Source: an uncultured Gemmata sp. (GTDB lineage: Bacteria > Planctomycetota > Planctomycetia > Gemmatales > Gemmataceae). Taken from it: a stretch of 64,000 nt of DNA. The stretch covers positions 62,001-126,000 of the forward strand of contig CALDUT010000007.1 in the NCBI GenBank assembly GCA_937924775.1, in the 5' to 3' direction. Under the pieces are notes generated by a model. The model saw nothing but the letters and a program-made list of their open reading frames with translations. It had not been told where the DNA came from and did not search any database. The position numbers and the translations under genes were made by a program. Shown piece by piece: positions 49,756 to 64,000 of this stretch; position 1 is the first letter of the stretch; every line of letters starts with the position of its first letter.

Positions 49756-50640
49756 TTACGGTGACGGCAGCAGTTGCCGCGATTTCAGCCAGTCCACCAA
49801 CCGGTCGGGCCACGTTGCGACCGAGGTTTCGCCTCCGGTCCACTTCGGATCACGACCCAAGCCCACGCCGTGTTTGCCTTTCTCGTAAATGTGCATCTCC
49901 ACCGGGACCCCAGCTTTCCGGCACGCGCGGTAGAAACGGATCGCATTCTCCACGGGCACGACTGTATCCGCAGTGGTGTGGAATAGGAATACTGGAGGAG
50001 TATCCTTCGTGACGTGCTTCTCGTTGGAGAAGAATTCCACCCATTGGGGATCAGGCTTCTCGCCCAAAAGATTGCGACGCGAGCCGGCGTGGGTCGCCGC
50101 GGGGTCGAACGTAATGACCGGGTAGGAGAGAATCACAAAATCGGGCCGGCTGCTGATGCGATCGATCGCGTCGCCTTCGGGTTGGCCCGCGTCGAAGTGC
50201 GTGGCCACTGTACTGGCCAGATGGCCACCGGCAGAGAACCCCCAAATACCGATGCGATCGGCAGCAATCCCGTACTCCTTGGCATGGGCTCGTACCATGC
50301 GAATCGCTCGTTGCGCATCGCGAAGCGGTGCTTCTCCCAACGGCCCGGGCCGCTCTTTGTTCGCTACCCGATACTTCAGCACAAACGCGGTCACGCCCAA
50401 CTCGTTCAGAAACGCGGCCACCTGCCGGCCTTCATGGTCGATCGCCAGGGTTCCATAGCCGCCCCCGGGGCAAACGACGATCGCTGTTCCGTTGGGCTTG
50501 GCAGGTTTGTAGAGGGTCAATTCGGGCTTGTCTGTGGGGGAATCGCCGATGGCCAACGGAGCTTTCCCCGGCCACAAGGGGAGGGTGCGGGGCTGTGGAT
50601 CAGCGGCTAGAGCCGTTAACAGCAGTGCCGAAGCCAGCAT
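49756..50640 (-). CDS. Secreted alpha/beta hydrolase, BD-FAE/acetyl-esterase type
   Basis: The ATG at 50640 has GGAG seven bases upstream and gives a signal peptide (MLASALLLTALAAD). The 294-residue esterase has the oxyanion motif CPGGGYGTLAIDHEG, nucleophile GFSAGGHLAS, aspartate in FLFHTTADTVVPVENA and histidine in IYEKGKHGVGLG. This matches the acetyl-xylan esterase/BD-FAE group. It is exported to act on polysaccharide or small acyl esters. It stands alone next to ssrA. Confidence 0.88.
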   Translation of the reverse strand: MLASALLLTALAADPQPRTLPLWPGKAPLAIGDSPTDKPELTLYKPAKPNGTAIVVCPGGGYGTLAIDHEGRQVAAFLNELGVTAFVLKYRVANKERPGPLGEAPLRDAQRAIRMVRAHAKEYGIAADRIGIWGFSAGGHLASTVATHFDAGQPEGDAIDRISSRPDFVILSYPVITFDPAATHAGSRRNLLGEKPDPQWVEFFSNEKHVTKDTPPVFLFHTTADTVVPVENAIRFYRACRKAGVPVEMHIYEKGKHGVGLGRDPKWTGGETSVATWPDRLVDWLKSRQLLPSP

Positions 50641-50841
50641 GGGTCCGCTCCACGGGCAAAAACTACCATGGGTATTATGTTCCACGGTGGCCATCTGACC
50701 AGCCACGCTCGAGGGAGGCGAGGGGAAATCGCGTTGAAAAGAGCCGTTTTTCCCATCACAGCCTGCGAATCGACGGGTTTTTCGCCATCAGAGAGAAAAT
50801 TCCGAAGAATCGCGCGAACTTTTTCCCGCCCTGGGGAATCG

Positions 50842-50883: not shown

Positions 50884-51286
50884 GGGGGCGATTGGTTTCG
50901 ACCGGGTATCGGAAGTGATTGGTGGCGTGTCGTGGTTGATCGGTTGGCCACGTAAAAAGCCGGTCACACTATAACTGCTGAACCGCAGTATTCTCTCGCG
51001 GCCTAAGTGCCATGAGCCGTTCCAGTGTCTTTGCCTGAGAGATGCTGGTTCGGACGCAAATCAGGCTCGCAGGAACTTGAGGGATAGGGCGACCTATCTC
51101 GCCTCGGCGGCGGTTCCTGCTAAGAGATTCTGGCCGATAGTTGCTCCGGGGTCCTGCCTGCCGGAACCCAGTGCAATGAACGCGGCATGATCCGTTCGCG
51201 GAGGCATGCCGGGCATAGACAGGCTACACACGTAGAGGCCAACACGGAAGTACTTCGGGACCGGGGTTCGATTCCCCGCGCCTCCA
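50884..51286 (+). ncRNA. ssrA: Transfer-messenger RNA
   Basis: tmRNA rescues stalled ribosomes. The 5' end GGGGGCGATTGGTTTCGACC and 3' end with GGTTCGATTCCCCGCGCCTCC form the tRNA-like part; GGGGGCG pairs with CGCCTCC. The CCA is not encoded. The tag frame starts with GCT at 50977 and reads AEPQYSLAA, then TAA (51004-51006). The tag is 9 residues and ends in LAA as expected for protease recognition. No group I intron or split form is seen. Length is about 403 bases. Confidence 0.93.
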
Positions 51287-51287
51287 C

Positions 51288-51545
51288 TAAGTCCTTTTGT
51301 AGCAAGGAGTTACGACAAGCACTAAGCGGCACAAACTCGCAATCCCCAAGGGCTTCTGGCGACGCTTGCGATGCATCGCCATTCCCCGCTGAACCTTGCT
51401 GCGCTGCTTTTTGCGCCGCCAACGCGTCGCTTTGTGCGTCGCTTTCTGGCACCCACCCTAACCCAAAGTCCGGTCGAAGGCCGCCTCCGTGGGGTCGACG
51501 TGACGTAGTGACGTAGTGCGACACTCGGCGTGTTGCCTAGCCCGC
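51288..51545 (-). pseudogene. Decayed C-terminus of a tyrosine integrase at ssrA
   Basis: Read on the minus strand, three frames together give an integrase tail: LGNTPSVALRHYV (the tyrosine-nucleophile segment), then VDPTEAAFDRTLG, then ESDAQSDALAAQKAAQQG in a third frame. The last resembles the tails of planctomycete integrases that end at tRNA-like targets. At least two frameshifts separate the pieces, and the rest of the gene is missing. The open frame runs on into the reverse complement of the tmRNA 3' end. This is the usual layout of an integrase next to its attachment site. Confidence 0.6.
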
Positions 51546-51579: not shown

Positions 51580-52285
51580 GTGTGGCTGTCAGTATATATG
51601 GGGCCGCTCCGGAACGAGGCCGGGACCCGGGCACGGCTCGTCGTTCTCACGGAGGCTGAGGTGGATGGCCGCCGCATCGCGTTTTGGGCCTAGGCGTCCG
51701 AGGTGGCGTGGGCCGATCACGCCGCCACTTTTGAAACGATTCTCAAGAGTGTGCGATTTGCGACTACGGGTGCTCCGCCGTCACCGCCTTCGCCCCTAGT
51801 CCTGCCACCGGTCGCACCACCCCCGGCTGTGGATAGTCTCAAAGAGTTGGCGAAAGTCTCGCGCATTCCCGGCTTCACAGCTGCTCTCACCTATACCGCT
51901 TCCGAGGACCGCGTTGTACTCGTCAATGCCGACGGTAAAACAGTCACCATCGGCGTCGCCAGACAGGGTAAAGCTATCGGGGCGGCCTACCGGGATTATC
52001 TTCGCACAGAGCCAGCGGTCGCGGCCATTTTTGGGCGATGCCGTGACGTTGGAGATGAGTGCGTTCAACAACACCATCCTGGTACAAGTCTGTGAAGGCG
52101 GGGCTTTGGTCAAAGAGAAAGCCAGTGGCCAAATCTGGTGGAATGCCCCCACCAAACGGCCGCGGACCCTCCGCCCCGACGATGAGTTAACACGCTATCC
52201 GGCCGTTGTCTTCGGGGGTCGCCTATGCGAAATCAGCACATTCCCTGAGCGGAACGGCCCCATCCAGACACAGCCAATTGGCTAA
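51580..52285 (+). pseudogene. Broken gene with nonsense codon and frameshift
   Basis: From 51580 one frame reads GPLRNEAGTRARLVVLTEAE then VDGRRIAFWA, stops at a TAG (51691-51693), and continues in the same frame with ASEVAWADHAATFETILKSV. A second break is near 52030 (run TTTTTGGG), where the frame moves by one base to GDAVTLEMSAFNNTILVQVC. The TAG could be a single mutation from GAG. The first part resembles secreted PsbP/DcrB-like domains; a Pro-rich linker and a second unassigned domain follow. The family is not recognised with confidence. Confidence 0.5.
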
Positions 52286-52429: not shown

Positions 52430-52520
52430 TCCGCACTAGCGATCCAATGAACGTCTACTGACTTTGCAGAGACAAGGAATTGACAGTAAACTCGGGGCAG
52501 GCCTCGATGAAGGAGTTATG

Positions 52521-55013
52521 ATGGAACCATGGGAATTTGCTTCGGTGTTCCAGCGATTAACGGGTCATCCGCCTTTTCCCTGGCAGCAGGCCTTGTACCA
52601 CACCTGGTTTGCGCAGGGCCGCGTGCCCCCGTCATGCAACCTGCCCACCGGGTTGGGCAAAACCGCGGTCATCGCGGTATGGCTGCTGGCATTGGCCCAG
52701 GGAGCGAATATTCCCCGGCGGCTGGTGTACGTTGTCAATCGCCGCACGGTGGTGGACCAAACCACCGCGGAAGTGGAGAACTACCGCAATCGCTTACGCG
52801 ACGCCGGGCTATTCGAACCCCTGCGGGCGTTGTCGGTGGCTGCCGCCGCGTCGGACGATTGCCCGTTGGCGATCAGCACACTGCGGGGGCAATTCGCTGA
52901 CAATCGCGAATGGAGTGCCGACCCCTCCCGCCCGGCGGTGATTTGCGGCACGGTCGACATGATCGGCAGCCGCTTACTTTTCAGCGGTTATGGGGTGGGA
53001 ATGAAGGCCAAACCGCTCCATGCCGGCTTTCTCGGTCAGGATACGCTGCTGATTCATGATGAAGCCCATCTCGAACCGGCCTTTCAGAAGCTGATCGAAG
53101 CCATTTGCGAGGAACAAACCCGCTGTTGCGACATCCGCCCGCTGCATGTCATGGAGTTGACCGCCACCAGTCGCGGAACTGGCGCAGCTTTTGGCCTGAC
53201 GGAAGCCGATCACGCCCACGACGTTGTTCGTCAGCGTGTCAGCGCGGTCAAACGATTGCATTTGCAGCCTCTGGACAAGGATAAGAAAGTCGCCGACGAG
53301 CTGGCGAAAAAGGCCCAGGAATTCGCGGACCAGAACCGGGCCGTGGTGGTGTTTGCCCGCACGGTGGAAGATGTGCTGAAAATCGCGGAAAAACTCCCCA
53401 AGAATCGCGTTCTGACGCTCACCGGCACCATGCGTGGCTGCGAACGTGATCGGTTGGTGGAAGAGCCGATTTTCCAGCGCTTCCTCCCGGGGGGCACCTC
53501 GGACGAACCCACCGTGTACCTCGTTTGCACCGCGGCGGGCGAAGTGGGGGTGAACATTTCCGCGGATCACCTCCTCAGCGATCTGACGCCGTTCGATAGC
53601 ATGGCGCAGCGGTTGGGCCGCGTCAATCGCTTTGGCCTTCGCTCCGATAGCGAAGTGCATGTGTATCACCCCACTGAGTTCGATAATGACAACCCTTACG
53701 AGCAAGCCTGCGCGCAAACCTTGGAACTGCTCCGCCAACTCGACGGCGACGCCAGCCCCGCCGCGCTCAGTCGCCTCGATACTCAGCAACGCCAATCGGC
53801 CTTCACCCCGCCACCGACCATTCTGCCGGTCACCGACATCCTCTTCGATGCCTGGGCCCTCACCACCATTCGCGAACCGCTACCGGGTCGGCCCCCGGTG
53901 GAACCGTACTTGCACGGTTTACCCGCCGAATGGCAACCACCAGAAACCCAGGTGGCCTGGCGAGAAGAAGTCGGGCGCATCACGGGCGCGTTGTTGGATT
54001 TCTACCGACCCGCCGATCTGCTCGAGGCCTACCCGCTCAAGCCGCACGAATGGCTCAAAGAACCCAGTTATCGAGCTTTCAAACACTTCGCGGCCCTGGC
54101 CGAACGCCACCCGGACGCCCCGGTGTGGCTGATGAACGACACCGGCAGCGTCGAAGTCCTCACCCTCCAGCAGATTGCCGACAAAAACAACAAGGAACGC
54201 ATCGAGGGCCAAACCGTCCTGCTGGCGCCTTATGTCGGTGGCCTCACCCGCCAAGGTTTGCTTGATGGCAGGGTGGCCGCTCCTTCCGAAGGTTCGCTCG
54301 ATGTCGCGGACATCCCCGGGGAACGGGTGCGAGTCTGGAGCGATGATGACGCATTCGAGGCGAAAACCGCCGGTATGCATGCCGTCGCCACCATCACCTT
54401 CCCAAGCGCCGACGATGACGCGGACGAAATCACCTGGGAATGGTTCACCCGTCGCAATGAGGGGGACCAATCCGCCCATCGACCGGTGCTTTGGGAAATT
54501 CATGTCGCGGATGTAGTCCGTCAGGCGGAACGTATGGTGACGGCCTTGGCGATGGAGCGTGAGTTGGCGGCAGCCATTGTGACCGCGGCCCAGTTCCACG
54601 ATCATGGGAAGAAACGCGAATTGTTCCAACAGATTCTCGGCAACAACCGTTACCCGCAGCGATGGTTGGCCAAATCCGGCCAACGCAGCACCACTCTCCC
54701 GGAAACCTACCGGCACGAGTTCGGTTCGCTGCTGGAGGCGGAGAAAGAACTGACCGGTGAACACCGCGACCTGATCCTGCACCTGATCGCGGCCCACCAC
54801 GGCCGAGCCCGGCCGCATTTTCTGCCTGATGAAGCCTTTGATCCGGAACGCCCCCCAACCGACGCCCAGCGGATGGCTACAGACGTGCCGCAGCGGTTCG
54901 CCCGCCTGCAACGAAGATACGGCCGCTGGGGCTTGGCGTATTTGGAATCACTCCTGCGGGCCGCTGATTGGGCCGCCAGTGCCAACCCGTCGGAGTTCGT
55001 GGACGGCAAATGA
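52521..55013 (+). CDS. cas3: CRISPR-associated helicase-nuclease Cas3, type I-G
   Basis: Unwinds and cuts target DNA after Cascade recognition. The second of two adjacent ATGs (52521) is spaced well from AAGGAG. The 830-residue chain has helicase motif I PTGLGKT (42-48), DEAH box at 180-183, the later motif VGVNISADHL, and QRLGRVNRFG. The HD nuclease is at the C-terminus (HDHGKKRE at 693, then HHGRARPHF), the reverse of the usual Cas3 order and typical of type I-U/I-G. A conserved WQQALYH motif lies near the start. It is the first gene of the operon. Confidence 0.93.
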   Translation: MEPWEFASVFQRLTGHPPFPWQQALYHTWFAQGRVPPSCNLPTGLGKTAVIAVWLLALAQGANIPRRLVYVVNRRTVVDQTTAEVENYRNRLRDAGLFEPLRALSVAAAASDDCPLAISTLRGQFADNREWSADPSRPAVICGTVDMIGSRLLFSGYGVGMKAKPLHAGFLGQDTLLIHDEAHLEPAFQKLIEAICEEQTRCCDIRPLHVMELTATSRGTGAAFGLTEADHAHDVVRQRVSAVKRLHLQPLDKDKKVADELAKKAQEFADQNRAVVVFARTVEDVLKIAEKLPKNRVLTLTGTMRGCERDRLVEEPIFQRFLPGGTSDEPTVYLVCTAAGEVGVNISADHLLSDLTPFDSMAQRLGRVNRFGLRSDSEVHVYHPTEFDNDNPYEQACAQTLELLRQLDGDASPAALSRLDTQQRQSAFTPPPTILPVTDILFDAWALTTIREPLPGRPPVEPYLHGLPAEWQPPETQVAWREEVGRITGALLDFYRPADLLEAYPLKPHEWLKEPSYRAFKHFAALAERHPDAPVWLMNDTGSVEVLTLQQIADKNNKERIEGQTVLLAPYVGGLTRQGLLDGRVAAPSEGSLDVADIPGERVRVWSDDDAFEAKTAGMHAVATITFPSADDDADEITWEWFTRRNEGDQSAHRPVLWEIHVADVVRQAERMVTALAMERELAAAIVTAAQFHDHGKKRELFQQILGNNRYPQRWLAKSGQRSTTLPETYRHEFGSLLEAEKELTGEHRDLILHLIAAHHGRARPHFLPDEAFDPERPPTDAQRMATDVPQRFARLQRRYGRWGLAYLESLLRAADWAASANPSEFVDGK

Positions 55014-55134: not shown

Positions 55135-55935
55135 ATGCGTGAATTCGATCCGGCGATCACAGTCCGCGTGGACCCCACCAACCCGGGGCAGTTTTTCGCC
55201 TGCTGTGGCCTGTTGGAACTAGCCGACCGCCTGTGGGCCGGCGTCGAAGGCTCGTTCGCGGACAACGACCGCCAGTTTCACCTCCACGGCAACGGTACAC
55301 TCAACGAACTCGTGGACGCCATCGCCCATGCGGAGTTGAAACCCACCCGACCCGATGATCCCTATTCCACGCCGTTTGTGGTGGGCCGGCCATTTCGGCC
55401 CCTGTCGATCGATTGGTGGGAAACGGACCTCACCGGTGCCAAAGACCTCAAGGTGTGGGCCGGAACCATGGAAAGTTACGGCATCGCCGCGGCCATGCAG
55501 CAGGCCCTGCGTGATGAACGGTTCCGGAAACCGGATCTGTTCGACGTGGGGCTGGTCGTCATGAATGCCGAGGAACCGGAGAAAAAGAAAGAGCCGTATT
55601 ACTACGATGCCCGCCGGTCGCTCAATGCCCACTCCCGCGACACCGGCTTTTCAGTCAACGACTTGGGGCTGACGACCACGGCGTTCCCGGCTGTGGAATT
55701 CTTATGCATCATCGGGCTGCAAGTGGCTCGGCCGGCGTTCACTGGAGAAACCCGGGTGTACGACTATTTCACATGGCCGGTGCCGTTACCCACCAACCTG
55801 CTCCTAGCGGCCTCCAGCGGTGCGTTGGCACTCCCCGGACGCAAGGGCTACCGCTTCGAGAACTGGTTCCGCACCGGTCAGAAAAAACACAAAGCCTTCC
55901 GTCCGGCGATTCCTCTTCCTTCGAGTGGAGTTTAA
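55135..55935 (+). CDS. csb3: Type I-G CRISPR protein Csb3 (Cas8-like)
   Basis: Second gene of the type I-G module. The opening FDPAITVRVDPTNPGQFFAC followed by CGLLELADRLW matches the Csb3/GSU0052 group, which replaces the Cas8 large subunit (some I-G systems have Csx17 instead). 266 residues. The following gene starts three bases after its TAA, so they are coupled. A 120-base gap to cas3 holds a GGGGGGAAG box only. Confidence 0.8.
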   Translation: MREFDPAITVRVDPTNPGQFFACCGLLELADRLWAGVEGSFADNDRQFHLHGNGTLNELVDAIAHAELKPTRPDDPYSTPFVVGRPFRPLSIDWWETDLTGAKDLKVWAGTMESYGIAAAMQQALRDERFRKPDLFDVGLVVMNAEEPEKKKEPYYYDARRSLNAHSRDTGFSVNDLGLTTTAFPAVEFLCIIGLQVARPAFTGETRVYDYFTWPVPLPTNLLLAASSGALALPGRKGYRFENWFRTGQKKHKAFRPAIPLPSSGV

Positions 55936-55938
55936 TCC

Positions 55939-57015
55939 ATGGCTGATGTTGCTCAGTTCGATCAGTATTTAGCGCCCGATGGACCCACGGCGTTGGTTAT
56001 TCGCGAATATCTGATGCCGGTGGAAGGTCCGGATGGCGTTGTGTTTCCGGCGACCTTTGCGGCTGGCGATGGCTTTCCGGGGGGGTACAACATCGATCGC
56101 GACGCCCACGGTAACAACGTCGTTCTGATTGATAGCGTTGGTTCGCAGGCCAACCGTATCGAGCCAATTTTCAAGGAAGACAAGTATCGTCACCTGGTTC
56201 CCCAAATCGTCATCGAGGCGGGGGAGAAAATGATCCACCTTCTCGAAGCCGGACACCGCGCAGGCGATGCGATTGTGCGATGTTCGGAGCTTAAAGAAGA
56301 CTTGCAAAAAGCCTTCCACGAGGTGCTGAGGGGTAATGCCGAACCGCTAGCGAGGCTGGCCCCCACGTCGTTGGTCTTTGGGGTGTGGGATTCTCGCGAT
56401 ACCCAAGCGAAACTGCCACGATTGGTGGCCTCGACCATCCGGGCTTTCAATGCCCGCCCCCTCACCCGCAGTGCGGTGTACATTCCACCGGTCGATTACG
56501 CGGCCCTGGATGTCTTCACTGAGGAAGAGAAAGCGAAAGCGGAAGGCGACCAGAAGAATCCCCTGGCCCAACGTGGATTCGTGCATGTCCCGGCTAGCGG
56601 TACGCACGGGGGCATCATCGCCGACGGGGGCATCCGTCGCGATGCCACCCTCGGTCTGGCCGCCCTGCGCTTACTTCAAGCGGGAAACGACGCCACCAAG
56701 ACAAAAGCTCTGCAGCGTTACATCTTGGGGCTGGCTCTGGTCGCATTCACCTACAGCCCGTTGGGTTACTTGCGCCAAGGTTGCCTGTTGGTTCTCGATC
56801 CCAATAAGCAACGCGAGTTTGTGGAAGTGTATCCCGATGGTAGCCGCCGTGACTGTCGCCTCACCCACGAGGAAGCCTTGGCCTACGCCAAGGCGGTAGC
56901 CGAAGAATTTGGTGTGGCTCAACCCCAGTCCGTGAGATTCGACAAAGACAAGGCCAAAGCGGACGTTCTCGAGAGCGGCGAGAAAGCCAAAACCAAGAAG
57001 GGTAGCAAGAAGTAA
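55939..57015 (+). CDS. csb1: Type I-G CRISPR protein Csb1 (Cas7 backbone)
   Basis: Cas7-type RRM protein (GSU0053 family) that coats the crRNA along Cascade. Marks are VFPATFAAGDGFPGGYNID (glycine-rich substrate loop), DSVGSQANRIEPIF near 65, THGGIIADGGIRRDATLGL and RYILGLALVAFTY. 358 residues with a Lys-rich C-terminal tail. It is packed between csb3 and csb2. Confidence 0.88.
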   Translation: MADVAQFDQYLAPDGPTALVIREYLMPVEGPDGVVFPATFAAGDGFPGGYNIDRDAHGNNVVLIDSVGSQANRIEPIFKEDKYRHLVPQIVIEAGEKMIHLLEAGHRAGDAIVRCSELKEDLQKAFHEVLRGNAEPLARLAPTSLVFGVWDSRDTQAKLPRLVASTIRAFNARPLTRSAVYIPPVDYAALDVFTEEEKAKAEGDQKNPLAQRGFVHVPASGTHGGIIADGGIRRDATLGLAALRLLQAGNDATKTKALQRYILGLALVAFTYSPLGYLRQGCLLVLDPNKQREFVEVYPDGSRRDCRLTHEEALAYAKAVAEEFGVAQPQSVRFDKDKAKADVLESGEKAKTKKGSKK

Positions 57016-57035: not shown

Positions 57036-58601
57036 ATGCCTGATTACTTGTGTTTCACCGTCCGCTTTTTGCAGCCGCTGTGCCATGGCCGCGGCGAGGG
57101 TGGCAAACCGGAGTGGCCGCCTTCGCCGTTGCGGCTGTTTCAAGCCCTCACCGCAGCTTCAGCAGCCCGCTGGAATGAGCGGCAACGACTCGATTACGCG
57201 GTACCGGCTCTGCAGTGGTTGGAAGTACAGCCGCGGCCGTGGATTGTCGCGGCTCATGGTAGCGTGTCACAAAAACCGCGTTTGTTTTACGTTCCCGACA
57301 ACACCACGGATTTGCTCGTGCCGCAATTCAAAAAGGGTATTGTGGACGCCACGCCCAAACGTACGGAGAAGATCGTCCGGCCCACACATCTGGCCGGGGA
57401 GGCCGTTCATTACTTGTATCCCTTGCCCCCAGAGGGGTGTCCCCGCTTCGACGTGTTGAAAGCCGCGGCTCGCAGTATCACCCATCTGGGCTGGGGCATC
57501 GACATGGTCGCGGCCGATGCTACGATCATTTCTCCGCACGACGCGGACAAACTGTCTGGTCACCGCTGGCGGGAAGTCCCCAACGGTGGTGTGTCGCTGC
57601 GCGTTCCCAAAGCCGGCACGCTCGCCGATCTGATGCGGAAACACGAGGCGTTTCTCGTTCGCATGGCGGATGATTGTTTTCGGCCGGTTCCGTCGCTTGC
57701 ATGTTTCGACGTGGTCCGCTATCACGCGCCCACCGCCGAGGGAAGCGAATATCCGCAACGCCCGCTGGCCGTGTTTGAAATTCACCGGACTCTTGAGGAC
57801 CGCGAGCGCAACCCGAGAGCAAGCCGGTTCCGGCCGTTCCACCCCGTTCGCCACGTCGCTTCGGTCGCGGGGATGGTCCGCCATGCGGCTGCGCGTGTGG
57901 CTCAACAAATGGGCTACGACCAATCGTGGATCGACGAACACATTCTCGGCCACAGCGAGGAAAAAAATGGTCAGGCCACCACCGACGAACGGCTGATGTT
58001 TCTCCCCCTGCCGAGCCTGACGCTGGTGGGTGTCAGTGGCATCCGCCGTGTCGCGATCGTGGGCTGGTCGGGCTGGGACGGATTTGTCGACCTGCGTCGG
58101 CGCTTGAATGGTGCCAAATTGATCGACGAACGCTCAGGCCAACCGGTCGCAGTACTGGCCCAACTGAAGACCCCCGATCAGATCGTTTGGAAATTTCTCG
58201 GACCCAGTCGCACGTGGACCACGGTGACACCGGTGATTCTGCCTGGTCATGATGATCCGGACGGCCTGCGGCGGAAATACCGCGAACGCGTCGCCGCGGG
58301 AAAGGCCTTGGCGGCCGACCAGCGACACCTCCTTGCGCGGCTCAATGACCGCATCGAAAACCTGCTGTGGAAGGCCTTCGGGCAAGCCGGCTGGCCAGCG
58401 GATGCCCTCGCCGGGGCGACGTTGGAGTATCGCGGCGTGGGGTGGCTACCGCGGTTGGGCTTAGCCCGGGAGTATGAACTGCCGAAAGTGCCTTATCCCC
58501 GTTACCATGTCCGCGTGACGTTTCCGCGTCCTGTTCGCGGGCCACTAGTGATCGGGGCCGGCCGCTACCGCGGCTTGGGGTTATTCGTGCGTGATGAATG
58601 A
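57036..58601 (+). CDS. csb2: Type I-G CRISPR protein Csb2 (Cas5-Cas6 fusion)
   Basis: Cas5u6u-type fusion (GSU0054 family), the signature gene of type I-U/I-G; it caps the crRNA 5' end and processes precursor crRNA. The N-terminal Cas5 half begins LCFTVRFLQPLCHGRGEGG and has EWPPSPLRLFQALTAA; the Cas6-like half includes a glycine-rich loop near the C-terminus (VIGAGRYRGLGLF). 521 residues. cas1, cas2, cas4 and a repeat array do not follow within 300 bases. Confidence 0.9.
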   Translation: MPDYLCFTVRFLQPLCHGRGEGGKPEWPPSPLRLFQALTAASAARWNERQRLDYAVPALQWLEVQPRPWIVAAHGSVSQKPRLFYVPDNTTDLLVPQFKKGIVDATPKRTEKIVRPTHLAGEAVHYLYPLPPEGCPRFDVLKAAARSITHLGWGIDMVAADATIISPHDADKLSGHRWREVPNGGVSLRVPKAGTLADLMRKHEAFLVRMADDCFRPVPSLACFDVVRYHAPTAEGSEYPQRPLAVFEIHRTLEDRERNPRASRFRPFHPVRHVASVAGMVRHAAARVAQQMGYDQSWIDEHILGHSEEKNGQATTDERLMFLPLPSLTLVGVSGIRRVAIVGWSGWDGFVDLRRRLNGAKLIDERSGQPVAVLAQLKTPDQIVWKFLGPSRTWTTVTPVILPGHDDPDGLRRKYRERVAAGKALAADQRHLLARLNDRIENLLWKAFGQAGWPADALAGATLEYRGVGWLPRLGLAREYELPKVPYPRYHVRVTFPRPVRGPLVIGAGRYRGLGLFVRDE

Positions 58602-58896: not shown

Positions 58897-61800
58897 ATGG
58901 GGCTTGTTCGACTGGCGCTGGGCAACATTTACGGCGTGGTCGTCTTTGCCCTGTTCATCATGGTGTTGGGATCGGTGGCCTTGGTCTCGATCCCGGTGGA
59001 CATTCTGCCAGCTTTTAAAGTTCCTGCGGTGCAGGTCCTGACGTACTACAACGGTATGCCGGCCCGGTCGGTCGAGCGAACACTGACCGATCGCATCGAG
59101 CGCTGGGTGAATCAAGCACCGGGTGTCGCCAACATTGAAAGCCGCTCGGTGTCTGGCGTCAGTGTGGTGAAGGTGTATTTCCGGGACGATGTGGATCCGA
59201 ATACGGCCATCACCATGACCAGCTCGTTAGCCGATGCGGCCCGGCCGTATCTGCCAACGAATACCCTTCCGCCGGTGATTCTCCCTTTTGACCCCACTGG
59301 CACCTTACCGTTGGGGATTCTGACGGTCAGCAACCCGCGCCTGGTCGAGCAGGAAGTGAAGGATCTGGCCCGGGTTGATGTCCGCAATCAGCTGGGCAGC
59401 ATCAGTGGCGTGGTCGCCCCAGTGGTGGTCGGCGGCAAGGATCGCCGCGTCATGATCTATTTGGACCCCAAAAAGCTTGAAGCCCGCAAGCTGTCGCCGG
59501 TCGACGTGGTGGAAGCGTTGGATCGCGGCAACATGATGGCTTCTCCCGGAACGGCCTACTTCGGCGACAATCAAGTGTCGCTCGATACCAACCTGATGGT
59601 GCGGACCGTTGACGAGCTCAATGATTTGCCGATCGTATTTGAACCGGGCCGGCGCATTGTTCTGCGCGATGTCGGTGAAGCGATCGACGATGCGGTTATT
59701 CAGAAGTCACGCGTGCGGGTCAACGGCCAGCAACAGGTTTACATCCCCATCTACCGCCAAGCCGGGGCTAGCAGCTTAACGGTCGCCGACGGTGTCCGCG
59801 ACGCTATCGGACGCATCGAATCCGAACTGCCCGAAGGCACCCGGCTAGAGTTTGTCATCGACCAGTCGGAATATGTTCGCAAGGCGATCGAGAGCCTCAT
59901 TCATGAAGGGATCCTCGGAGCCATTCTGGTCGCATGGATGATCCTGCTTTTTCTGGGCAACTGGAAGATGACGCTGATTGCGTCCCTGTCGCTGCCGCTG
60001 GCCATTCTGGGCGCGATCATCGGCCTGAAAACCTCGGGCCAAACCATCAACGTGATGACCCTCGGCGGGCTGTTTTTGGCGATCGGCCCTCTGGTGGATA
60101 ACGCGATAGTCGTTCTGGAGAACACACACCGGCACTTGGGAATGGGCAAATTGCCAGCGCAGGCGGCGCTCGATGCCTGTGGCGAGCTGTTTCTGCCTGT
60201 GGTCATTGCCACGTTAGCACTGATTATCGTCTTGGCCCCAGTCGCCCTGACGCCCGGGGTCAGCGGTTTTCTCTTCCAGCCGCTGACAGTCGCCGTAGCC
60301 TTCGCCATGCTCACCTCGCTGGTTCTATCGTGGACGTTCGTTCCGGCTCTGTGTGCAAAATTGCTCAAAAACGACCATCAGCACGCCACGTCGCTGGCCC
60401 AACCGCAGCCGCCGGGCTTCTTCCACCGCCTGTATGCTCCCATCCCCGCTACGATCACCTGGTTGGGCCGGCAATATGCCGCATTGTTGGCGGTGGCTTT
60501 GCGATACCGGATGACCATCTTGAGTGGGATTGGGATTCTCTTTGTGGGGTCGTTGGGGTTGGCCCGCGTCATTGGGCAAGAGTACTTCCCAGCGGTCGAT
60601 GCCGGCCAGATCACCCTTGAAGTCCGCGGACCCTCGAACATGCGGCTTGACGCCACGGAACGACGCATCATCGACGTGGAGGCGGCCCTGTTGCTCGATC
60701 CAGAACATCCCGAACGTGGCGGCATTCCCGGTCAAGAACTGCAAATGGTCGTCTCGGAAATCGGCCTGAATAATGATTGGTCAGCGGCCTATTCGGCTAA
60801 CGCGGGTCAACAAGACACCACAATTCGCATTCAATTGACGCCGCAACGCAGCCGCAGCGCCCAGGAATATGCCATGGAATTGCGGCAGAAATTGACCACC
60901 GATCCCCGCTTCGCAGACCTCGAATTCAGCTTCAACACGGGGGGCATGGTGTCCGCCGCTCTCAACTTCGGCTCATCCTCACCGATTGATATTCAAATCA
61001 CCGGGGGTACGGCGGAACAAAAATTCCTGGTCGCCGAGCAGATCAAGAATGTGGTGCGCGACATTCCGGGAGCTGTGGATGTGCGCGTGCTGCAACGCAA
61101 CGATGCACCCTACTTGATTCTGGAGGTCAACCGGGAGAAAGCCCAGGCCGTGGGCTTATCGGCCCGCGACGTGGTCATGCAGCTGGTCACCGCGATGAAC
61201 TCAAGCATTACCCTGACCCGCAACTTCTGGATCGATCCCAAAAGTGGCAATCAATATTTCGTGGCCGTGCAATATCCAGATAATCCCTATTTCACGATGG
61301 AGGATCTGAACAACGTTATTGCCACGGGCACCAAGCAGAGGACACCGGTGCGACTCGGCTCGCTAGTGACAGTACGCAGTACCACGGAACCTGTGGAATT
61401 CAACCACAATGGCCTCAAACGGGTGGTCAATGTGCAAGTCAACACGCAGGGCTGCGATATCGGTAGCCTGGCGGCGGATATCCGCCGGCGTCTGAAAGGA
61501 TTGGAACTGCCATCCGGTATGAAAGCGGAACTGCGCGGCGAGTATGCCCGCATGAAAGAATCCTTCGACAGCCTGTCGGTGGGGTTAGCACTCGCTTCCG
61601 TTTTGGTCTACCTCTTGATGGTGCCATTGATGCGATCGTTTGTACAGCCATTGATCATCATGGCGACCGTTCCACTGGGCTTGATCGGTGTTTTGGTAAT
61701 GCTGTGGGCCACCCGCACAACGCTCAACATCCAATCGGAAATGGGTGTGATCTTTTTGGTGGGGATCATTGTTTCCCAGGGTGTGCTGTTGATGGACTTT

Positions 61801-62094
61801 GCCAACCAACTGCGCCACCAGGGTTATTCCGTCTACGAAGCCATCACACAATCCGCACTCATCCGCTTCAAACCGATTCTGATGACGTTTCTGGCGACGT
61901 TTTTGGATCTGTTGCCGATGGCGATCGGGCTGGGGCGTGGTAGTGAAGCGTTAACCCCTCTGGCCCGTGCGGTCGTCGGCGGCTTGCTGTCCGCCACAGT
62001 GTTGACTCTCTTCGTGGTGCCGATTCTGTACACATTGCTGATTCGCGACAAACGCCGGCGCGGATCCCATGACATGCCGGCTGATTCCCAGTGA
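58897..62094 (+). CDS. RND efflux transporter permease (AcrB/MdtB-like)
   Basis: Inner-membrane pump of a tripartite efflux system driven by protons. The 1065-residue protein has 12 membrane helices in two halves, with large periplasmic porter domains. Marks are GVVVFALFIMVLGSVALVSI followed by PVDILPA, VERTLTDRIERWVNQAPGV, FLGNWKMTLIASLSLPLAIL and GGLFLAIGPLVDNAIVVLEN (the latter in the proton-relay helix), and VGIIVSQGVLLMDFAN in the second half. The start has GAGGA eight bases upstream. It is followed by the adaptor and an outer-membrane gene. Substrate is unknown. Confidence 0.95.
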   Translation: MGLVRLALGNIYGVVVFALFIMVLGSVALVSIPVDILPAFKVPAVQVLTYYNGMPARSVERTLTDRIERWVNQAPGVANIESRSVSGVSVVKVYFRDDVDPNTAITMTSSLADAARPYLPTNTLPPVILPFDPTGTLPLGILTVSNPRLVEQEVKDLARVDVRNQLGSISGVVAPVVVGGKDRRVMIYLDPKKLEARKLSPVDVVEALDRGNMMASPGTAYFGDNQVSLDTNLMVRTVDELNDLPIVFEPGRRIVLRDVGEAIDDAVIQKSRVRVNGQQQVYIPIYRQAGASSLTVADGVRDAIGRIESELPEGTRLEFVIDQSEYVRKAIESLIHEGILGAILVAWMILLFLGNWKMTLIASLSLPLAILGAIIGLKTSGQTINVMTLGGLFLAIGPLVDNAIVVLENTHRHLGMGKLPAQAALDACGELFLPVVIATLALIIVLAPVALTPGVSGFLFQPLTVAVAFAMLTSLVLSWTFVPALCAKLLKNDHQHATSLAQPQPPGFFHRLYAPIPATITWLGRQYAALLAVALRYRMTILSGIGILFVGSLGLARVIGQEYFPAVDAGQITLEVRGPSNMRLDATERRIIDVEAALLLDPEHPERGGIPGQELQMVVSEIGLNNDWSAAYSANAGQQDTTIRIQLTPQRSRSAQEYAMELRQKLTTDPRFADLEFSFNTGGMVSAALNFGSSSPIDIQITGGTAEQKFLVAEQIKNVVRDIPGAVDVRVLQRNDAPYLILEVNREKAQAVGLSARDVVMQLVTAMNSSITLTRNFWIDPKSGNQYFVAVQYPDNPYFTMEDLNNVIATGTKQRTPVRLGSLVTVRSTTEPVEFNHNGLKRVVNVQVNTQGCDIGSLAADIRRRLKGLELPSGMKAELRGEYARMKESFDSLSVGLALASVLVYLLMVPLMRSFVQPLIIMATVPLGLIGVLVMLWATRTTLNIQSEMGVIFLVGIIVSQGVLLMDFANQLRHQGYSVYEAITQSALIRFKPILMTFLATFLDLLPMAIGLGRGSEALTPLARAVVGGLLSATVLTLFVVPILYTLLIRDKRRRGSHDMPADSQ

Positions 62095-62139
62095 CGCCAC
62101 GAGCGTGTTGTGTCTGAGCACAGAGGGACAGGGGGACTC

Positions 62140-63798
62140 ATGAAAGCCATCGATCCGGGAGGAAACCCGACCCCTAAGGCTACGGCGGAACTACGTCTTG
62201 CGGCAACCCGCTCACGCCGACGCGTTATCGGTCTTGTGTTGGCCGTCGTGGTGTTGGCTGGCGCGGGCGCCGCGGTCGGCGTCCTCACCGGTTTTCTGCC
62301 CCATCCGGTGGTGGCCGGTGATCCGCAGGCCAGTGGCTGGGATCGTGACGCCTCATTCCAGCAACCACTGCCGGTGAAGGTGGTTCATCCCAAACGCGAC
62401 CCGGACTTCCGGATTACCGTCAAACAATTCGTCACGGTGGAACCCTACTATCAAGCCGGGTTACGGTCGCGGGTGGCCGGTGTTGTTCAGTCGGTCACCA
62501 AAGACATCGGCGACCCGGTTCATAGTGGCGAACTTCTCGTGGAACTGGCCGTACCCGACTTGTGGCAAGCCCTGGAACAAAAATCGGCCCTGATTGCCCA
62601 ACGGGAAAAAGAACTCGAAGTAGCCCGCAAAGAGTTGGCCGTGGCCGAAACGGCCGTGAACGCGGCCCAAGTGCTGGTTCGCCTCAAGGAAATCGACGTG
62701 GCCCGGGCCAAAGACCACCGCGACGCACGCCGGACCGAATGGGAAGCGATCACGCTCCTCTACAACCAGAATGCTGTGGTTAAGTCTCGGGTCGATGCCG
62801 CGTGGTTGGATTATCAAGCCGCGCAACGGTTGGTCGAAGTTGCGGAAGTCGAACTCGAGAAAGCGAAAGTGGAATGGACTGGGAAAGTCTCAAGTCGGGA
62901 GAAAGTCGCTGCCGAAGTGGAGTTAAAGCGTGTCCTCATCGACGTTGCCCGCCGCGAACAGGAAGCTGCGGCCATTCAATTGGGTTATTCCCGCTTGTAT
63001 GCTCCGTTTGATGGGATCGTCATCGCCCGTACGACCGACCCTGGTCAATTCGTTTCCGGCGGAAGCGGTGGCCCCAGTGAACCGCTCATCACTGTGGCCC
63101 GGATCGATCTTGTCAAAGCTGTCGCCAAGGTTGCCGATAACGTGGCCCCGTTTATCTCGCACGATACCGAAGCGACGATTGAATTCACCCAACTACCCGG
63201 TGTGCAAATCCGTGGCCCGATCACCCGCTTCAGCCAGGCGATTGATCCCAATGACCAAACCATGCGTCTGGAAGTCGATATTTTTAACGGCACATATGCT
63301 GATTACCAAGCATTACTAACCCAAACGGCGTTGCGTACCACCATCACGCCGTTACTTCCCGAACCGCACCTGGCCTTAGGACTGTTGGCCGCTGGGACCT
63401 TCAGCAGTTACGTCGACGATGGCAACTGGCACGAAGGCTTCGCGCTACCCATCAACCCCGGGCCGGAACATCATTACCAAAGAATCTATCCCGGGACCAC
63501 CGCCACCATGTGGTTGGATTTGCAAAAATTCGCCTATGCCATGTTGCTGCCTTCCAGTGCGGTTTTCACGCGTTCGGGGCAAGCGTACATCTTGGTTGCT
63601 GACAATGGCGTCACGCAGATGGTGCCTGTCGTGGTCCAAGTCAACGACGGGAAAATGGCCAAAGTGGCGATCGTCACCACTCACAACGGCGGACAGCCCA
63701 GAACCCGCGAGCTGACCGGTCAGGAATTGATCGTCCTCCATCGCCAACTGGAAGTCGGTGAGGGGCGGCGTGTCCAACCCATCGTGGAAGATTGGTAA
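62140..63798 (+). CDS. RND efflux periplasmic adaptor (HlyD/MFP family)
   Basis: Periplasmic adaptor bridging pump and outer-membrane channel. The ATG at 62140 is chosen over a GTG at 62110. The 552-residue chain has an N-terminal anchor helix (about 30-50), a lipoyl-like half (RVAGVVQSVTKDIGDPVHSG, with its partner LYAPFDGIVIARTTDPGQF), a coiled-coil hairpin (about 140-270) and beta-barrel and MP domains. It is about 150 residues longer than usual; the excess lies in the barrel part and near GLLAAGTFSSYVDDGNWHEG. Confidence 0.88.
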   Translation: MKAIDPGGNPTPKATAELRLAATRSRRRVIGLVLAVVVLAGAGAAVGVLTGFLPHPVVAGDPQASGWDRDASFQQPLPVKVVHPKRDPDFRITVKQFVTVEPYYQAGLRSRVAGVVQSVTKDIGDPVHSGELLVELAVPDLWQALEQKSALIAQREKELEVARKELAVAETAVNAAQVLVRLKEIDVARAKDHRDARRTEWEAITLLYNQNAVVKSRVDAAWLDYQAAQRLVEVAEVELEKAKVEWTGKVSSREKVAAEVELKRVLIDVARREQEAAAIQLGYSRLYAPFDGIVIARTTDPGQFVSGGSGGPSEPLITVARIDLVKAVAKVADNVAPFISHDTEATIEFTQLPGVQIRGPITRFSQAIDPNDQTMRLEVDIFNGTYADYQALLTQTALRTTITPLLPEPHLALGLLAAGTFSSYVDDGNWHEGFALPINPGPEHHYQRIYPGTTATMWLDLQKFAYAMLLPSSAVFTRSGQAYILVADNGVTQMVPVVVQVNDGKMAKVAIVTTHNGGQPRTRELTGQELIVLHRQLEVGEGRRVQPIVEDW

Positions 63799-63833
63799 TC
63801 CCCGGACGATCCACCCAGGTGCAGGGAGGCACT

Positions 63834-64000
63834 ATGTACCAACGCCAAGCACGGCTCGGGCTTGTTATAGTACTCGGTGGCGGGTGGGTACTTGGAGCGC
63901 CACTATTGCAGGCCGAGCCTCCGCCCCAGTTCCCGTCCGCATCCACGCCCGCAGCGCCGGCCACCACCAGCCAACCGATCGACTTATTGACCGCGTTACG
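63834..64000 (+). CDS. TolC-like outer-membrane efflux protein, N-terminus only
   Basis: An ATG at 63834 with a GGAGG box opens a frame that runs off the window. The visible 55 residues are a signal peptide (RLGLVIVLGGGWVLGAPLL) and a Pro-rich segment. No family core is seen; the TolC call rests on its place after a pump-adaptor pair. Confidence 0.55.
   Translation, partial: MYQRQARLGLVIVLGGGWVLGAPLLQAEPPPQFPSASTPAAPATTSQPIDLLTAL

Follow-up and report, generated by a model that had tools for sequence, protein, structure and literature searches.

An eroded integrase tail at the tmRNA gene of a Gemmata genome, probably left by an element of a family whose integrase C-terminus is proposed to be replaced on integration

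Results

The tmRNA gene and its surroundings

The DNA analysed here (the window) is a 64,000-nt stretch of a 4.79-Mb planctomycete genome (G000, contig C7: 62001-126000), and the region of interest is the 3' side of its tmRNA gene, ssrA, and the genes that follow it:

49756-50706, minus strand: alpha/beta hydrolase (Pfam BD-FAE), the left flank of ssrA kept in the genus
50884-51287, plus strand: ssrA (tmRNA, found by ARAGORN), tag AEPQYSLAA, the probable target of the lost element's insertion
51265-51286, plus strand: att core GGTTCGATTCCCCGCGCCTCCA, 22 nt spanning T loop to CCA, of which relatives carry a second copy as attR
51120-51524, minus strand: open frame with integrase piece 3 and 168 nt antisense to the tmRNA gene (ORF list, translation)
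51470-51243, minus strand: integrase C-terminal piece 3, DFGLGWVPES...QKDLVEARGIEPRSRSTSV (tblastn, 72% identity, E 2.5e-26)
51517-51464, minus strand: integrase piece 2, LRH-VDPTEAAFDRTL, in a second frame (tblastn, E 2.7e-6)
51540-51493, minus strand: integrase piece 1, LGNTPSVALRHYV, with the presumed catalytic Tyr, in a third frame (tblastn, E 1.7e-7)
51802-52282, plus strand: degraded gene fragment in two frames, resembling the C-terminal half of large Gemmata proteins
52464-55013, plus strand: cas3 (type I-G; TIGR02621, E 1e-207), whose ortholog adjoins ssrA in G012
55135-55935, plus strand: cas8g2 (profile match; TIGR04106, TIGR02570 and TIGR02165 cover this gene and the next two)
55939-57015, plus strand: csb1 (profile match)
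57036-58601, plus strand: csb2 (profile match)

The tmRNA gene is scored at 150.3 bits by Rfam RF00023, with the match extending to 51289. On its right lie, in this order, the integrase pieces, the degraded fragment of another gene (49-55% identity to proteins of G005, G006 and G009, in frames of 653-1211 aa) and cas3; the N-terminal part of the degraded fragment is visible from about 51610 (window 51610-52285, plus strand). The left side, from the hydrolase to ssrA, is conserved in eight members of the genus (G001, G002, G004, G008, G010, G013, G017 and G018), while the right side differs. In the sister species G012 (L076 / G012:C65) there is no hydrolase upstream of ssrA, unlike in the rest of the genus, and the synteny with the genus ends about 72 nt before ssrA.

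A decayed integrase tail crosses into ssrA

Using as tblastn reference the integrase tail found at ssrA of a genome from the same family (G045), the C-terminal ~95 codons of a planctomycete tyrosine integrase were recovered on the minus strand (51243-51540), spread over three frames. The first-pass annotation had described a frameshifted integrase tail at the 3' end of ssrA, and this description is borne out by similarities far above chance (best E 2.5e-26); the limits that it gave (51288-51545) are correct, yet they end at the edge of the tmRNA gene, and the reading frame continues beyond it. Piece 3 runs antisense into the tmRNA gene and its frame stays open to 51120 (ORF list and translation); the resulting open frame (51120-51524) is no functional gene at present. 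Of the tyrosine recombinase domain, the window keeps only the end, with LRHYV, the homology breaking off just upstream of LGNTPS, so that about 350 N-terminal codons are missing. Neither Pfam nor NCBIfam matches the integrase pieces of the window, since a tail so short cannot score, and the relic was therefore identified through its homologues. The tblastn comparison with planctomycete integrases did return matches, and a lack of them was one of the outcomes that would have spoken against the earlier description. Piece 3 is matched in 10 of 98 relatives (several times in open frames of 430-584 aa), and at 13 of the 15 match loci that were fetched a tRNA or tmRNA 3' end lies at the match.

Draft assemblies can acquire indels, and one of the frame changes coincides with a short tandem duplication (GACGTAGT), which could suggest that the frameshifts are assembly errors in an otherwise intact integrase gene. 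We regard this as very improbable, given the abrupt end of the homology and the fragment of another gene that now stands in place of the N-terminal codons. At least two frame changes mark the decay of the tail, and the homologues argue that this tail is the attL-side remnant of an old element that recombined into the 3' end of ssrA.

ssrA is an insertion hotspot, and no attR was found in this genome

The proposal that ssrA served as an integration target agrees with what is found in the group, where the gene is a hotspot with a constant left flank and a variable right side: ssrA is accompanied by an intact integrase in G018, G006 and G011, and by decayed integrase pieces in G008, G010, G013 and G014. 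Exact second copies of the 22-nt att core are present in G017 (42.7 kb away), G045 and G061, and G026 has, 57 kb downstream of ssrA, a copy of the tmRNA 3' end with 2 mismatches, followed by a hairpin that resembles the native ssrA terminator of other genomes. In G017, the exact copy of the tmRNA 3' end stands together with the AWP tail described below (G017:C1:5252873; L133, L162), ssrA retains the native terminator, and the integrase is about 20 kb further in, an arrangement that looks like a rearranged or decayed island.

The genome holding the window gives another result. No second copy of the 27-nt tmRNA 3' end was found in the whole of G000 with 3 mismatches allowed, a 101-nt DNA search for attR in the same genome found none, and a local attR scan of the contig of the window gave best matches only at control level. 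The first-pass annotation had expected such a copy to mark the far end of an old island downstream of ssrA; four relatives have one, and G000 does not at up to 3 mismatches. What stands of the proposed island is the decayed integrase tail from an insertion into ssrA, and an island still flanked by attL and attR finds no support. Because no displaced copy of the tmRNA 3' end was found in G000, the window is best read as showing an eroded attL end, a relic rather than an island.

The type I-G cas genes are neighbours of the relic

It had also been suggested that the CRISPR module came as cargo of the island. In the sister species G012, ssrA, cas3, cas8g2, csb1 and csb2 stand in identical order, and the spacer between ssrA and cas3 (~0.5 kb) is unrelated to that of G000 and carries no integrase tail; in the other relatives, where the contigs permit checking, the type I-G cas genes lie away from ssrA. 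The order is thus common to the sister species only, and conservation of it in distant relatives, which would have counted against an island, was not seen. The cas proteins of G000 and G012 share 66-82% amino acid identity, against about 87-97% for the nearest flanking proteins, a difference that fits either faster evolution or separate replacement.

The relic could then mark an island that still holds the cas module, with an attR eroded past recognition, as the position of the cas genes directly downstream of ssrA in G000 and G012, away from it in the other relatives checked, and the lower identity of their proteins might suggest. We consider this unlikely: no second tmRNA 3' end exists genome-wide at up to 3 mismatches, the G012 cas genes have neither the tail nor a related spacer, and faster evolution of the cas genes could by itself explain the lower identity. 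The suggestion of cargo is not borne out, with ssrA-cas3 occurring in G012 without the integrase tail and in G000 without attR; the cas genes are neighbours of the relic, with no evidence that they arrived with that element, and the window itself is a modest find, an old scar at ssrA.

Beyond the cas module, G000 and G012 are collinear, except that G000 has an additional 6.8 kb, an efflux pump operon. This operon (window 58897-64000, continuing into L028) comprises an RND efflux pump, a membrane fusion protein and a third gene (509 aa), and it sits between csb2 and the flank that in G012 comes almost directly after csb2. The type I-G effector genes adjoin ssrA in G000 and G012 only, with neither an array nor Cas1 nearby: Cas1 (a 576-aa frame) is on another contig (C24), and no CRISPR array was found on contig C7, where the sole repeat is a 3-copy GC-rich run at 261561.

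An integrase family that ends inside tRNA and tmRNA genes

The homologues of the relic have their C-termini antisense in the 3' ends of tmRNA, tRNA-SeC, Glu, Met, Lys and Ser genes, to which later searches added tRNA-Leu, Val, Arg, Asn and Gln, and the family matches Phage_integrase (PF00589, E 1.4e-9). Among 37 integrase loci with an adjacent RNA gene (a set spanning tRNA-Ser, Leu, Glu, Val, Arg, Met, Asn, Gln, SeC and tmRNA), the frame is open into the RNA gene in 31. All three phases through the tRNA are in use (GxEP, GxRT and xESN), and the overlap is therefore not one fixed inherited frame. The catalytic residues (R226, K252, HxxR 328 and Y362) all precede the tRNA-like block, at 436, so the integrated gene still encodes the whole catalytic domain.

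Beyond the relic, G000 contains at least five members of this family next to tRNA genes, in intact or decayed form, and four of these lie at the ends of contigs. The integrases are at C4:80, C6:145471, C13:114134 and C15:650, and the tail-bearing contig ends are the end of C8, the starts of C9 and C19 and the end of C21. Four contig ends of this genome bear integrases and four bear tails; the sequences match up the Leu ends (C15/C21) and the Glu ends (C4/C8), so the assembly seems to break inside these elements.

A conserved tail is encoded at attR

The attR ends of the relatives encode a conserved peptide of ~45 aa (PDLAALIDAWPTLPEAIRAGILAMV). At the right end of the G045 element, the sequence read in the int frame across the 22-nt block is open and encodes NPRKTALLASGGAESGALAPDLAELIDAWPTLPEAIRAGILAMVRA. 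Matches to the peptide occur in 52 of the 99 planctomycete genomes searched. For 47 of 63 tails, the 150 nt upstream contain a tRNA T-arm antisense motif (against 1.8% of control windows), and the stretch from motif to tail is free of stops in all of these but one (46/47). Searches of the AWPxLPExIR tail against Pfam, NCBIfam and PHROGs gave no family, with one PHROG at E 0.14. The pN/pS of the tails is 0.46, a value biased by their selection with a peptide pattern and not relied on here. In G026 a recognisable tail is absent, and int stops early. At one locus of G031 (L151, C14:54309-57073), an apparent serine-recombinase C-terminus leads in frame, by way of a tRNA-Asn att block, into the tail; this locus is perhaps a tandem element, and the tail may be common even to serine recombinases.

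The int frame continues into the tail

Integrases and attR tails were paired within one genome by their shared tRNA block. Automatic pairing gave 20 pairs, 17 of them agreeing in frame; two of the three that disagreed were judged mispaired (one of which agreed once it was paired with tRNA-Ser instead), and the third (L186) was judged to come from a decayed local int. L240, which has a single stop, L243/L215, whose int frame is interrupted ahead of the block, and L162/L201, with a broken int, were left out; 16 pairs were accepted, and in every one the int frame, joined in silico to the attR side at the shared block, continues into the tail. The pairs fall into the three phases as 11, 4 and 1 (exact permutation P 4.6e-5, a value weakened by the choice of the 16 pairs by eye after the frames were seen); the 46 of 47 open frames are independent of how these pairs were chosen. 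Between the block and the conserved Trp lie linkers of different lengths (27-45 residues), which are in frame every time. Additionally, one junction of the attP type was found in G011 (L152), with 90 nt of int tail, the block and the AWP tail in a single open frame, its int part matching, at 98.9% identity, the tail of the integrase that resides at ssrA in that genome.

No intact full-length gene with int, block and tail was seen in the genomes searched, and no free circular form in viral, phage and plasmid collections. Four long frames considered as int-tail fusions (L165, L178, L180 and L181) were rejected, as they look like spurious antisense frames or another protein. The evidence on the family is inference from sequence, mostly of draft genomes.

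These observations bear on a simpler explanation, namely that the window holds the relic of an ordinary tDNA island, in which the integrase merely overlaps ssrA, and some element gene with no link to int happens to end in the attR peptide. The window has the attL side only, and an int that overlaps its target RNA gene is commonplace, both of which accord with such an explanation. Nevertheless, an unrelated gene would hardly give the agreement in frame of all accepted pairs across different tRNAs and with linkers of varying length, nor the open frames that lead from the tails back to the tRNA block; and in a fusion, the tail requires no start codon. An ordinary island relic seems improbable to us.

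Discussion

The relic, its overlap with ssrA, the attR copies, the continuity of frame and the conservation of the tail are all seen in the sequences, and we give a probability of about 0.8 to the reading that the window holds the relic of an ssrA element from a family with attP inside int, in which integration replaces the C-terminal tail. The placement of attP inside int is argued from the int frame, which continues into the attR tail in all 16 pairs. The window copy has neither attR nor tail, and so the relic is placed in the switching family by homology only.

According to this reading, the integrase gene of the lost element would have converged on ssrA, with its last codons read from the antisense strand of the tmRNA gene, and the rest of the element and its attR would since have gone from G000. 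In the living family, int contains the att core (attP). In the predicted circle, int would read through the tRNA-like block (about eight codons) into the conserved tail; integration would leave this tail at attR, at the other end of the island, and join int to the sequence of the host tRNA or tmRNA gene, leaving an integrase with an intact catalytic domain and a different C-terminus. The element would then express a tailed integrase when circular and, when integrated, an altered one, probably less active or different in specificity. By analogy with Myxococcus phage Mx8, the most likely role of this arrangement would be that of an integration-state switch.

A broader proposal can be made with less confidence, at slightly under even odds: that throughout the Planctomycetes a large family of such tRNA and tmRNA elements switches its integrase by integrating, where only the circle would encode the integrase with the AWPxLPExIR tail, needed for integration, and the chromosomal form, ending in an antisense tRNA or tmRNA peptide, would be adapted to staying in the chromosome or to leaving it.

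Self-disrupting recombinases are exclusively archaeal according to one review (PMC8371274), and self-modifying integrase genes have otherwise been rarities, such as those of phage Mx8 and the rumA ICEs (PMC4701971). A bacterial family spread over a phylum, with an uncharacterised tail, would offer many natural pairs of circular and integrated integrases to test, as well as natural integrases whose final residues come from many different tRNA genes. It would also account for the odd GxEP or GxRT peptides that end planctomycete integrase frames, and in element mapping the tails could flag attR ends even in fragmented assemblies.

The closest known system is the integrase of the Myxococcus phage Mx8, a tyrosine integrase with attP within the int coding sequence, in which integration swaps 112 C-terminal residues for 13 and lowers the activity (PMC4701971); a review describes an altered specificity and a molecular switch (PMC6070905). 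The phage form of Mx8 Int has the peptide RSTGLEP, which resembles a tRNA antisense translation and stands between the catalytic domain and the C-terminal tail, in the place that matches the planctomycete block. The two integrases differ in that Mx8 Int has another tail and a weak similarity (31% over 65 aa, E 5e-4 as a single comparison), whereas the planctomycete family uses many tRNA genes as well as tmRNA and is widespread in one phylum. The planctomycete integrases may therefore be said to work like that of Mx8, at a similarity too low to place them in the same family.

The archaeal suicidal (SSV-type) integrases also have attP inside int and frequently target tRNA genes, but their integration severs Int(N) from the catalytic Int(C), leaving fragments that are inactive where tested in vitro; in the planctomycete family, only the tail past the catalytic Tyr would be replaced, the catalytic residues lying upstream of the block. 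The streptococcal ICEs in rumA have their att site in the integrase gene and an excised form with a different C-terminus (PMC4701971), but their integrase is a serine integrase and their target is a protein-coding gene. In mycobacteriophage BPs, attP lies inside a regulatory gene and integration shortens the C-terminus of the protein and alters its activity (PMC4557955), the altered protein being the repressor and not the integrase. Finally, the tDNA and tmRNA islands mapped by Islander share the tmRNA target, the displaced 3' fragment as attR and the integrase at the target (PMC4383910; the same paper mentions that the Mx8 and SSV integrases extend across attP), but the window copy differs in having neither attR nor most of int, and a search of the Islander type would for that reason miss it. 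No planctomycete case of an integrase spanning attP was found in the full-text literature (mostly open-access), and the family and its tail appear to be undescribed. Switches of this type have rarely been described.
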